Shown piece after piece: positions 8,346-61,034 of a DNA stretch of 64,000 nucleotides. Under the pieces are notes generated by a model. That model saw only the letters and a program-made list of their open reading frames with translations, was not told where the DNA came from and searched no databases. The stretch is from an uncultured Clostridia bacterium (GTDB lineage: Bacteria > Bacillota > Clostridia > Oscillospirales > UBA644). The stretch lies in the NCBI GenBank assembly GCA_948443805.1, contig CAOJUB010000001.1:124001-188000 (forward strand), given 5' to 3'. The stretch's first letter is position 1. Every line of letters begins with the position of its first letter. The position numbers and the translations under genes were made by a program.

Positions 8346-9593
8346 ATGGCGGGTAAAACAGCCTGTTGCTGCGGCATGATGCCGTGGTTTAAAGAGGGAG
8401 CGCCGCTTCGGTATCCCGCGCTTTCCGAGAATGTTCAAACCGAAGTTCTTGTTGTCGGCGGCGGACTTTCCGGTTTGCTGTCCGCGTATTTTCTCGTTCA
8501 GGCGGGGGTTGACTGCGTTTTAGTTGAGCAGGGATTGCTTGGCGGCGCTTCAAAATTTTTCGGCGGTTTTTCTTGTGACGGCGGACCGTCCTTAACAAAG
8601 TTGTTTTCTTTATATAGCCGGGAAAATGCGCTTCGGCTCTGGCAGAGCATTTGTCAGACGGTCCGGGATGTGGAAACTTTTGTTTCCGATGTTGCGCCGG
8701 GCTGCGGCTATAAACAAAAAGACAGTTTTTTCTTTACGCAGAAAGAAGAAAATATTTCGGATATGAAGGAGGAATTCCGTCTTCGTAATTTTAGCGGATT
8801 TCCCTGTGAATTTATTGGCGCTGACGATGCGCTGAGTCTATTTTCGTTTCCGGTGTGCGGGGGCGTGTATGTGAAAAATTGCGGCGGAGAAATCAATCCT
8901 GTCGCATTGGCCGATGGCGTGGCTTCCCGGCTGACGCTTTGCGGCGGGCGGATCTATGAAGAAAGCAGCGTTGTTTCCATGCGGAAGAAAAACGGGAATT
9001 TTTTTGTTTCCAAAACAAAAAACGGTTTTGAAATCACGTCAAAGGCCGTCTGCGACTGCCGCGGGGTGGAATTGCTGAAACGGTATCCCGGTATGGGGAA
9101 AAGAAAAACTGTTTTTTCGCTTTGTTCGGACGCCGCGCCCAATCTTTCCGGATGGCCGGGACGCTGCGTGATGAAAAACGATGAGAAAAAACGACCCCTC
9201 TTTATTTTCGGCGCAGACAGCGAGCGGGTTGTTTTGCAAGGTGAGGAAAGCGGCATCCTCACGCCTTCCGGAGGTTTTCACGGCATAGAAACCGGGTTTT
9301 TGTTTGATGTGAAGAAAGAAAGTCTGAAAATCCAGGCGGAAGAAATGTTCCTCGGCGAAAGCCTGTCTTTTCCTTTTTTCGGAGCCGCCGGCATGGTCTG
9401 TACCTCCGATGGGCTTCCCTATGCGGGAGAAGACCGAAATCTTCCCGGTTATTATTATGTATGCGGCGATGGGCGGAACGCTGTTGTCAACGCCATTCAC
9501 TGCGGCCGGCTCATCGCAGGACTCTATACGGGAAATGGGAAGGAAACATCGGATTTGAACGCATCGCTTTTTTCTATGAGAGAGCCGGAATAG
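8346..9593 (+). CDS. FAD-dependent oxidoreductase (DadA/glycine oxidase-like)
   Basis: Flavoprotein of the DAO family, which oxidises amines or amino acids. The ATG at 8346 is chosen because GGGAGGT (8333-8339) lies 6 bp before it; a TTG at 8331 would overlap that site. The 415 residues have the Rossmann motif GGGLSGL near residue 37 with the acidic partner in CVLVEQG, and a C-terminal FAD-contact segment around GYYYVCGDGRNAV. In Firmicutes such proteins often end in a Rieske domain; this one does not. The N-terminus has three adjacent cysteines (CCC, residues 7-9). It is monocistronic. Confidence 0.85.
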   Translation: MAGKTACCCGMMPWFKEGAPLRYPALSENVQTEVLVVGGGLSGLLSAYFLVQAGVDCVLVEQGLLGGASKFFGGFSCDGGPSLTKLFSLYSRENALRLWQSICQTVRDVETFVSDVAPGCGYKQKDSFFFTQKEENISDMKEEFRLRNFSGFPCEFIGADDALSLFSFPVCGGVYVKNCGGEINPVALADGVASRLTLCGGRIYEESSVVSMRKKNGNFFVSKTKNGFEITSKAVCDCRGVELLKRYPGMGKRKTVFSLCSDAAPNLSGWPGRCVMKNDEKKRPLFIFGADSERVVLQGEESGILTPSGGFHGIETGFLFDVKKESLKIQAEEMFLGESLSFPFFGAAGMVCTSDGLPYAGEDRNLPGYYYVCGDGRNAVVNAIHCGRLIAGLYTGNGKETSDLNASLFSMREPE

Positions 9594-9706
9594 AATATAA
9601 AAAATTATAGCATAATACCGTTCGGATATCAAGTACGGCGGCATATTTTTTACAATTTATTCGGAACATCGTCTTTGACAAAAAAATGAATTTTCGGCTG
9701 CCCCTC

Positions 9707-9735
9707 TTGCAAAAAATTGGGTTTTATGCTATGAT
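9707..9735 (+). promoter_or_regulatory. Promoter of the riboswitch/P-type ATPase transcript
   Basis: TTGCAA (9707-9712) and TATGAT (9730-9735) with a 17-bp spacer. Transcription would start near 9742, just before the riboswitch. Confidence 0.7.
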
Positions 9736-9741
9736 TTGAGA

Positions 9742-9920
9742 ACAGAATGGGATTTTCAGCAAACAGAATATTTTCGTGAGGGAGTAGTTCCGCAGTTTTG
9801 CGAGATAAATCAACAGTCATGGCCTGATTCAGGTCTGGTTTATCGAAAAAACATGTCGTTTTTTGTAAACATGTTTCAGAATGAGACTCATATGCTATTG
9901 TGCATATGGGTCTTTTTTAT
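9742..9920 (+). ncRNA. yybP-ykoY (manganese) riboswitch with terminator
   Basis: The leader contains the conserved loop GGGAGTAG (9780-9787), the second conserved segment CAACAGTCATGGCC (9811-9824) and the 3' closing element TGAGACT (9882-9888). These are the hallmarks of the yybP-ykoY Mn2+ riboswitch. The GAGAC strand of the aptamer is also the 5' arm of a 12-bp terminator stem (9884-9895 with 9902-9913) followed by a run of six T. Aptamer and terminator are therefore mutually exclusive, as expected for a Mn2+-on switch. This leader fills most of the 400-bp gap before the ATPase gene. Confidence 0.82.
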
Positions 9921-9995
9921 TTGGAAATTCAGCAAATCCCGCAATGAAAGATTCGGTAAGCGGATTGAAAATGTATTTTTATAAAAGGTATGGTG

Positions 9996-58092: not shown

Positions 58093-58121
58093 TTGAAAAA
58101 GAGGGGCAGATGCTGTATAAT
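58093..58121 (+). promoter_or_regulatory. Promoter of the 930-residue membrane protein gene
   Basis: TTGAAA (58093-58098), 17-bp spacer, TATAAT (58116-58121). The 75-nt leader has CTATCT-ATT-AGGTAG and GGG-TTTCG-CCC hairpins. Confidence 0.85.
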
Positions 58122-58205
58122 AGAATAGATAAGTTCTATCTATTAGGTAGGGAAACAGAGCCAGTAGGGTTTCGCCCTTTATATTTTTGAATAGGAGAAA
58201 TCGTT

Positions 58206-60998
58206 GTGGAAAATAAGAATTCTATCGCCGGTAATGAAAATAATTCGCATGCCGATGTATCTTTTTCCGATATTCTCAGCGGTATTCGGGAAGCAAAAAA
58301 CCAGCTGGAAGATTCGAATCTGCAACCGGAATCGGAAAACAGGGTTCCGGATGAAGTTCAGCCCGACATCCCGGAAGACGCTGGCTTGCCGGTAACGGAA
58401 GAAACGCCGGCTTCTGTCGTTCCGGAAGAGAATGCCGACAGTGGAGACAACGGCGGCGAAGTTCTTTCTGCCGCAGAAGAATTGGTTCCGGAATCCTCTT
58501 CTGCAAACGATCTTTCGGTGGAAAGCGCGCCCGACAAACCGTTGGAAGAGTCCGTATTGCCGGAACCGGATATTGCTAATTTGCCGTCTGCTTCGCTTTC
58601 TCCTGCTTCGGAAGATTCGGCGGAAGAAGAAATTTCAGAGGCAGCCGAGGCGGCGCCCGCAACCGAGGAAATGCCTTCGGCAGCTGATGAACAGGTTTTG
58701 CTGGAAAAGTTACGGGAAGAACTGCAGAAAAACGAAGAATCTTCACAGGAGATTTCATCGCCGGCCGAGGCCGTTGCCGAAGAACCGGCAGGGACGGATA
58801 TGGTAACGCCCCCGGAAAAAACTGCGCCGGAAGAACCGATAGAGCCGGAAGAACCGTCTGTTGCCGAAACACCGGCGGAATCTGCCGATGACAGTCATTC
58901 TCACGGGCCGTCTGCTGACGAAGAAGATAATCCGGAGATTCCGGAAGATGAACTGCCGAAAAAGAAGAGCCCTGCCGGGAAAATTTTACTTGCGGTTTTG
59001 TTCCTTTTGATTTTGCTCTGTTCTGTTGCCGTGATTGTTTTTCAGGTTGCTGTGCCGGAGCGGGAACGGCTTGAAGTGACGGCCGGCGTTCATTTTCTTC
59101 TGGGGAATTATCAGTCTTCCGAAACGGCCTATTTAAAATTGCTAACCGGAAATGAAGCGGAAGATGAGAAAACCGTAGACAATTTGCTCCGTACGTACAC
59201 GGCGTGGTCGGCTGCCGCCGCCCGTTCGAAAAAAATGGATATCGGCGCGGTTTACGCCTCGGAAAAATTGTTGAATTATGTTCCGGATAATGATGTTTAT
59301 AAATATTATTACAGCAAAAATCTTTATCATGCCGGCCGGTATGAAGACGCAAAGAATGTTTGCGCCGTCATTCTGGAAAATGATCCGTTGAACCGCGATT
59401 ATAACGATTTAATGCTGGAAATCAGCCTTGCGGGCGGTTTCCGCCGGGAAGAGGTTCAGACCTATTTCCGGATGTATGAAATTACCGGCGATGAAAAATA
59501 CCGCCTTACCGCCAACTATATGATTCCTTCCGCACCCGCTTTTTCCAACCTTGGCGGCGATTCTGATTTTTATATTAAACTGACAATCAAGGCGCCCGAA
59601 AACTGTAAAGTTGTTTTTACCGTTGACGGGAGCAAGCCGGATAGCTCAGTTGCCCTGACCGATACGCCGAATATTACAAGCCGGACGCATGTTTATCAGG
59701 ACGGTTTGGATTTCTCTTACTATGCAAACGGAAAAAGCATGATTCTCCGCGCTGTTTCGGTTACCGAGGACGGGGTGGAAAGCTATGAAACCATTGGAAT
59801 TTATAATTTTAATTTAGAATACTGTCCGGTAGAAACCATCACCCTGAACCGGTCGGAAATTACTTTGACCGAGGGCGACGTCTTTTCTCTTCGGCCGGAT
59901 ATTCAGCCTTCCGGCGCAACCAATAAGAATATTGTATGGCGATCGACGAACGAAAAATTTGTTACCGTCGATGATAACGGTCTTGTTACTGCGGTGAATT
60001 TTACCGATAGCGAAGATCCGGACGTTCGCTGCCAGACTGCTGTTACTGTAGACGTTATCGGCAAGGCGATGTCGGAGAATGTTACGGTTGTTTGCAAAGT
60101 GACGGTCGTTCCGGAAAAGATTAAGCCGACAAACGATACTTTCTTGGCGAAAAATCTTTTGGATTTTGATCTGACAAAACCGCTTGAAGTTCATGACGAT
60201 ACGGTCGGATGGCTGTATATGGAATATCATTACAAAGTTCCGTTTTTGCCGAATGATCCGATCGTCCGCGCGCCTTCCGATACCCCGGATTTTTACCGTT
60301 CGCACAATATCTATAAAGCGCAGAATCCGGACGGAACGCTGTCGGTTCCGTTTGGCACGAATATGCAGACGCTGGGAAAAAATACCGTAATCGAGGGGAA
60401 TGTTTTTTCTCTGAGTGAATATACGTCGGACGAATCGGGAAAGCAGACTGCCGCGGAAAAAGAATCCCGCCGTCTGCAGGAACTGGCAAAATATCCGATG
60501 GGCGGGGGATATATGTTCTCTGCGCTTGCCGGCCTGAACCGGGAACCGGAATGGTATCTTGACGCAGACAATCATTTTGTATATCTCGGAACCGGCCATG
60601 CAACGTATGTTTGCCAGATGTTTTCCTGGTATAAAGCCGAGGGATTCGATAATTACGATGTGGTTGACTTTTCATCGGACGAGGATTTTGTCTCCTATGC
60701 AAAGAGTTTGCAGGAGAGAAATCAGCTGTTTAATCTGATTCGTTATGAAAATTTTGCTCCGTCTGACTGTATCGTGACCCTGGTTGGTTATAAAAACGGC
60801 GTTCCGGATACGGTTGTTCATGCGAAGGTCGTAAAATACCTTGCGTTTGAATCGGGTTATTACGCGACTGCACCGTCTGTGTCGGAATCCACGCATTATG
60901 TCCCCTGGAATATCGATTCCGGGACTGTTGAAGGAAATGTGGAAGATAACGAACCGGTTTCTGACGGGGAAAACCAGACACCGGCAGAATCCGATTAA
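58206..60998 (+). CDS. Membrane protein with a predicted inactive class B sortase-like domain
   Basis: 930 residues, GTG start with AGGAGAAA upstream. Residues 1-250 are acidic and Pro/Ser-rich, probably cytoplasmic; KKK and one membrane helix follow (259-283). Then a TPR-like stretch (285-445), a chitobiase-C-terminal/FN3-like beta domain with VVFTVDGSKP (455-535), a Big2 Ig-like domain (541-638) and a C-terminal domain (658-880) that reads like sortase B: KNTVIEGN where SrtB has NTIIYGHN, a segment DFSSDEDFVSYAKSLQER, then IVTLVGY for TLSTC, and TVVHAK for RFVVHA. The catalytic His, Cys and Arg positions are Asn, Tyr (862) and Thr. It may be a surface scaffold or substrate-binding pseudoenzyme. 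Monocistronic. Confidence 0.7.
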   Translation: MENKNSIAGNENNSHADVSFSDILSGIREAKNQLEDSNLQPESENRVPDEVQPDIPEDAGLPVTEETPASVVPEENADSGDNGGEVLSAAEELVPESSSANDLSVESAPDKPLEESVLPEPDIANLPSASLSPASEDSAEEEISEAAEAAPATEEMPSAADEQVLLEKLREELQKNEESSQEISSPAEAVAEEPAGTDMVTPPEKTAPEEPIEPEEPSVAETPAESADDSHSHGPSADEEDNPEIPEDELPKKKSPAGKILLAVLFLLILLCSVAVIVFQVAVPERERLEVTAGVHFLLGNYQSSETAYLKLLTGNEAEDEKTVDNLLRTYTAWSAAAARSKKMDIGAVYASEKLLNYVPDNDVYKYYYSKNLYHAGRYEDAKNVCAVILENDPLNRDYNDLMLEISLAGGFRREEVQTYFRMYEITGDEKYRLTANYMIPSAPAFSNLGGDSDFYIKLTIKAPENCKVVFTVDGSKPDSSVALTDTPNITSRTHVYQDGLDFSYYANGKSMILRAVSVTEDGVESYETIGIYNFNLEYCPVETITLNRSEITLTEGDVFSLRPDIQPSGATNKNIVWRSTNEKFVTVDDNGLVTAVNFTDSEDPDVRCQTAVTVDVIGKAMSENVTVVCKVTVVPEKIKPTNDTFLAKNLLDFDLTKPLEVHDDTVGWLYMEYHYKVPFLPNDPIVRAPSDTPDFYRSHNIYKAQNPDGTLSVPFGTNMQTLGKNTVIEGNVFSLSEYTSDESGKQTAAEKESRRLQELAKYPMGGGYMFSALAGLNREPEWYLDADNHFVYLGTGHATYVCQMFSWYKAEGFDNYDVVDFSSDEDFVSYAKSLQERNQLFNLIRYENFAPSDCIVTLVGYKNGVPDTVVHAKVVKYLAFESGYYATAPSVSESTHYVPWNIDSGTVEGNVEDNEPVSDGENQTPAESD

Positions 60999-61001
60999 AA
61001 T

Positions 61002-61034
61002 AAAAAACGGGACGGAGGGTCCGTCCCGTTTTTT
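61002..61034 (+). terminator. Intrinsic terminator after the 930-residue protein
   Basis: ACGGGACGGA (61007-61016) pairs with TCCGTCCCGT (61020-61029) around GGG, A-run before and T-run after. Confidence 0.93.

Follow-up and report, generated by a model that had tools for sequence, protein, structure and literature searches.

Sortases are the enzymes that staple proteins to the cell wall, and many enzyme families are known to include pseudoenzymes. We found no published pseudosortase or otherwise inactive sortase in the open-access PMC literature, and the novelty of such a protein is thus provisional. By analogy, the nearest functional precedent is SipA of S. pyogenes, a signal peptidase-like pseudoenzyme that is essential for sortase-made pili (PMC4049620). 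In fold, the closest described proteins are the class B sortases (SrtB; TIGR03064, PF04203; PDB 4lfd, 5b23, 2oqw and 5gyj). The gene described here codes for a 930-residue protein and occupies positions 58206..60998 of the forward strand of the window, i.e., the whole 64,000-nucleotide stretch of DNA that was analyzed; all features located below are on that strand. Its product shares with SrtB the fold, the order of the motifs, the C-terminal VVHAK strand and an N-terminal membrane anchor, but it lacks the catalytic His, Cys and Arg, most residues of its peptide groove are replaced, an insertion of 33 residues follows the former His position, and the domain is carried on a long multidomain stem.

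The reading frame, taken from the ORF listing, begins with a GTG codon preceded by a ribosome-binding site, AGGAG, read in the sequence at 58193..58197. A pattern search for promoters returned three matches where 4.0 were expected by chance; by far the best of them, TTGAAA-17-TATAAT (58093..58121), agrees with the consensus at 11 of 12 positions and lies 85 nt upstream of the start codon. Directly 3' of the stop codon, the terminator search revealed an intrinsic terminator with a 15-bp stem and a T run (61002..61034). Since the gene has its own near-consensus promoter-like site and a terminator immediately behind its stop codon, it is probably transcribed alone, as judged from these signals. 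Its neighbors are genes resembling those for mannose-6-phosphate isomerase and an alpha/beta hydrolase, and its GC3 is similar to that of the neighboring genes. Just 5' of the start codon, at 58166-58188, the leader contains a small hairpin, AGGGTTTCGCCCT, followed by TTTATATTTTT, which could be a weak attenuator. The whole leader folds no better than shuffled sequences (fold z -0.47), gave no Rfam match over cut-off to a riboswitch or structured leader, and occurs once in the host genome.

The initial annotation had recognized the order of SrtB segments at residues ~658-880 (60181-60845, i.e., residues 659-880). This was borne out with a hidden Markov model trained on 24 active sortases from related genomes, the protein itself being left out: the domain scored 108.9 bits (E 2.6e-32), while none of 2,000 shuffles (0/2000) nor the reversed domain reached an E value of 10. 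PDB SrtB chains matched it at E 5e-4 to 2e-3, and it is 29-33% identical to sortases of its own family over ~200 residues. The curated models gave little or nothing, with a weak match to the NCBIfam class B sortase model TIGR03064 (E 6e-5; 22.4 bits, far below the curated cut-off of 153.75) and no match to PF04203 in a Pfam search of the protein. On the profile and alignment evidence, residues ~645-880 (60138..60845) are confirmed as a class B sortase domain.

An AlphaFold2 (AF2) model of the domain, of medium confidence (mean pLDDT 70, pTM 0.74), was obtained with an alignment of nine SrtB relatives from viral contigs, which were located by DNA pattern, a search of those contigs with a sortase alignment having given none. 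SrtB structures accounted for all of the best PDB matches of this model (Foldseek E 3e-13 for 2oqw), and the model superposed on the S. aureus SrtB-substrate complex 4lfd with a Z score of 20.8 and 2.2 Å over 183 residues. A control prediction from the single sequence yielded a pLDDT of 33.7 and no usable model. The prediction confirms that the domain is compatible with the SrtB-type beta-barrel; as the input alignment consisted of sortases, it is not independent of the sequence match.

A maximum-likelihood tree of 60 sortases placed the domain among the SrtB proteins of its own family, in a clade with 99/96 support, on a very long branch of 2.79 changes per site. The domain lay near the sortases of genome G005, a grouping that is not reliable. 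The domain scored 111 bits against a model of the family's housekeeping SrtB and did not match a model of a second group of lipoprotein-like proteins, in which a class B sortase follows N-terminal Big2 domains; most likely, it derives from the family's own SrtB, as far as phylogeny and profiles indicate. An origin from this Big2-SrtB group was therefore rejected, the group's model having no match to the domain. Like the protein described here, its members (e.g., L170, L175, L179 and, in G005, L176) carry Big2 and then a class B sortase, but their catalytic residues are intact, they belong to another sortase subgroup, and their insertion, of ~40 residues before the catalytic strand, comes later in the domain. 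These second sortases are found beside the housekeeping srtB, in a sister genus (L170-L175 and L177-L179) and in G005 (L176), and several of the set start with a lipobox-like LxAC. The G005 locus (contig C31; L176 and L058) is an array of three or more consecutive class B sortase genes, of which one carries Big2 and TLVTC.

Searches for orthologues of the full-length protein came up empty across the family (20 genomes), the order (394) and a sample of the phylum (398), as well as in viral contigs; contigs from GTDB gave matches to Big2 only. A syntenic copy beside manA was absent from eight relatives, and neither their manA loci nor the family genomes revealed a conserved neighborhood. The pseudo-sortase thus appears lineage-specific within this sample, in which its genus is represented by one genome and very near records may fall outside the collections.

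Alignment with the 24 relatives, all of which have the intact His-Cys-Arg triad, located the replacements. As first proposed, the catalytic His is replaced by Asn732 (in VIEGN; 60399..60401) and the Cys by Tyr862 (in TLVGY; 60789..60791). The Arg is also lost, as claimed, but the residue in its column in both the MAFFT and the profile alignments is Asp868 (60807..60809; DTVVHAK compared with RVAVHAK), not the Thr named initially, which is the next residue, Thr869. Beside the former His is an insertion of ~33 residues (735-767; 60408..60506), seen in the alignment and in the AF2 model and predicted to be mostly helical. Placing this insertion before the His column (alignment A5) brings Tyr767 to the His position and still supplies no His.

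The same replacements were sought in close genomes and found in none. Besides the 24 relatives, all 62 sortase ORFs of a wider set drawn from family and order retain the triad (62/62), long multidomain ones included, as do additional family sortases beyond these 62, and no other degenerate sortase was found in the order among those sortase ORFs that are long or otherwise unusual. L176, which first seemed to lack the Cys and was considered as a second degenerate sortase, carries TLVTC and was rejected. Separately, a group of ORFs of 1,200 to 1,670 residues (L131, L138, L140 and L158, and also L151, L156 and L157) joins substrate and sortase in one chain: a surface protein-like region that ends in a VPQTGD sorting signal, with its transmembrane segment and Lys/Arg tail, runs directly into a second transmembrane segment and an intact class B sortase.

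The polar residues at the old site (Asn732 or Tyr767, Tyr862 and Asp868) and the two Cys residues of the barrel, Cys803 and Cys855, raise the question of whether the domain might perform another chemistry. However, in the alignment, Cys803 takes the place of a Trp in the VWQIF strand, and Cys855, seven residues ahead of the catalytic position, falls where the strand with the terminal TLSTC of active enzymes begins; by this measure, both lie away from where the relatives have their active site. To our knowledge, another chemistry at an old sortase site has no precedent, and we regard it as highly improbable.

We then considered the peptide groove. In S. aureus SrtB, the NPQT peptide is contacted by Asn92, Leu96, Tyr128, Thr177, Tyr181, Ile182, Glu224 and Arg233 (PMC5118464, PMC4371152). 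Based on the match to PDB SrtB and the alignment to relatives, these residues correspond to Pro694, Arg698, Glu730, Gly813, Tyr817, Asp818, Lys863 and Asp868, respectively. Seven of the eight contacts are thus changed, mostly to unlike residues, and only Tyr817, the equivalent of Tyr181, is kept. Since the Thr177 and Glu224 positions also vary in active relatives, where Lys is usual at the latter, the telling losses in this comparison are those of Asn92, Leu96, Tyr128, Ile182 and Arg233. The initial annotation had suggested a receptor for sorting signals, which would bind LPXTG- or NPQTN-like C-terminal signals and not cleave them. The retained sortase fold and Tyr817 are in line with this proposal, but the altered groove and the lack of host proteins that pass the Pfam cut-off as LPXTG-type anchor substrates (weak matches occur everywhere, as a control indicated) leave it unsupported, and we judge it improbable; a general scaffold or a receptor for another ligand is preferred.

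The pattern of change also bears on the possibility that the loss of catalysis was accidental and that the domain is vanishing. Conservation in 85% or more of the active relatives defined 39 positions; those of the active site and groove are changed in 8 of 9 cases and the others in 8 of 30 (Fisher p=0.0015, a guide only, as the two classes of positions were defined after the alignment was seen). Changes concentrated at the active site and groove, with the core kept, make both simple decay and the sorting-signal receptor less convincing, and the pattern suits a remodeled non-catalytic domain better than general decay. The occurrence in one genome and the very long branch would be expected of a decaying sortase; against this stand the intact 930-residue frame with its promoter-like site and terminator, and the ordered fold that is predicted when relatives are supplied. 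We consider decay unlikely.

The remainder of the protein suggests how the domain may be displayed. The N-terminal region (residues 1-258; 58206..58979) is acidic, Pro-rich and of low complexity, and is predicted to be cytoplasmic because KKK is located ahead of the single transmembrane segment (residues ~260-283, ILLAVLFLLILLCSVAVIVFQVAV; 58983..59054). The stem comprises a TPR-like part (residues 348-403; 59247..59414), a CHB_HEX_C_1-like domain, best matched at residues 457-485 (59574..59660), and an Ig-like Big_2 domain (residues 542-597; 59829..59996). The initial domain list of TPR-like, chitobiase-C-like and Big2 parts is therefore upheld as to presence, but only Big_2, with 34.7 bits, passes its own Pfam cut-off. 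The TPR-like part (TPR_19, E 1e-3) and the CHB_HEX_C-like domain both score below theirs and are backed by a paralogue in the host genome (L055, positions 1144-3087 of contig C9), in which TPR and CHB_HEX_C are over cut-off, the latter with 58.6 bits.

The paralogue has the same order of transmembrane segment, TPR and CHB_HEX_C, and the two stems are 28% identical; unlike the pseudo-sortase, it ends in leucine-rich repeats rather than in Big2 and a sortase domain. Leucine-rich repeats are a typical ligand-binding module. Beyond the host, another 16 family genomes have homologues of the paralogue, which brings the total to 17 of 20. Given this common stem and its distribution, the pseudo-sortase stands in a position that is normally filled, in this family, by a ligand-binding leucine-rich repeat domain.

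A role alongside an active sortase was also weighed. The host genome has one intact SrtB (L057, positions 8895-9974, reverse strand, of contig C10), and the pseudo-sortase, encoded on contig C1, is a diverged copy of the housekeeping SrtB group. Together with the precedent of SipA (PMC4049620), this might point to a helper that pairs with the sole active SrtB or hands it substrates or lipid II. Yet the genes are located on separate contigs among unrelated neighbors, and a search for pilus or LPXTG genes turned up none in the surroundings and none above the Pfam cut-off. Like the pseudo-sortase, SipA is a membrane-anchored pseudoenzyme of a surface-processing family with replaced catalytic residues; it differs in having another fold, in being encoded in a pilus operon and in keeping its peptide-binding cleft (PMC4049620), whereas here there is no sortase or pilus operon and the groove is altered. 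We therefore find a helper of this kind unlikely. The broader idea of a true pseudosortase, a sortase counterpart of SipA that selection maintains as a non-catalytic surface module and that cooperates with the active SrtB or the wall or controls them, is somewhat more plausible, if still doubtful.

The reading that we favor, with a probability of roughly 0.55, is that of a non-catalytic surface protein whose class B sortase module comes from a duplicated housekeeping-type SrtB and has a binding or scaffold role. Its basis in computation is the SrtB fold and descent, the loss of the triad and of most of the groove, the stem in common with the leucine-rich repeat paralogue, and the gene's own promoter-like site and terminator; sequence, phylogeny and model likewise give good support to the original proposal that a pseudo-sortase is fused to parts resembling TPR and chitobiase-C and to Big2. 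The single genome and the branch of 2.79 count against this reading, and no ligand or partner was found in the neighborhood or in the family genomes. In the proposed scenario, the family's SrtB would have been duplicated and one copy would have become non-catalytic. The ~258-residue acidic tail would be in the cytoplasm, the one membrane segment would serve as the anchor, and the TPR-CHB_HEX_C-Big2 stem would hold the sortase-derived domain outward as the outermost module. The old active-site face, remodeled by charged residues and by the insertion, might then act as a protein- or wall polymer-binding or scaffold surface, with no role in transpeptidation. Surface display and a non-catalytic interaction role are thus what the sequence suggests.

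For annotation, sortase-like matches that lack the Cys, His and Arg should not be labeled as sortases. If the domain is functional, it would be an example of the sortase barrel put to new use, as a binding module of the Gram-positive cell surface, and it would offer a natural inactive sortase fold with which to ask what the barrel binds beyond sorting signals.
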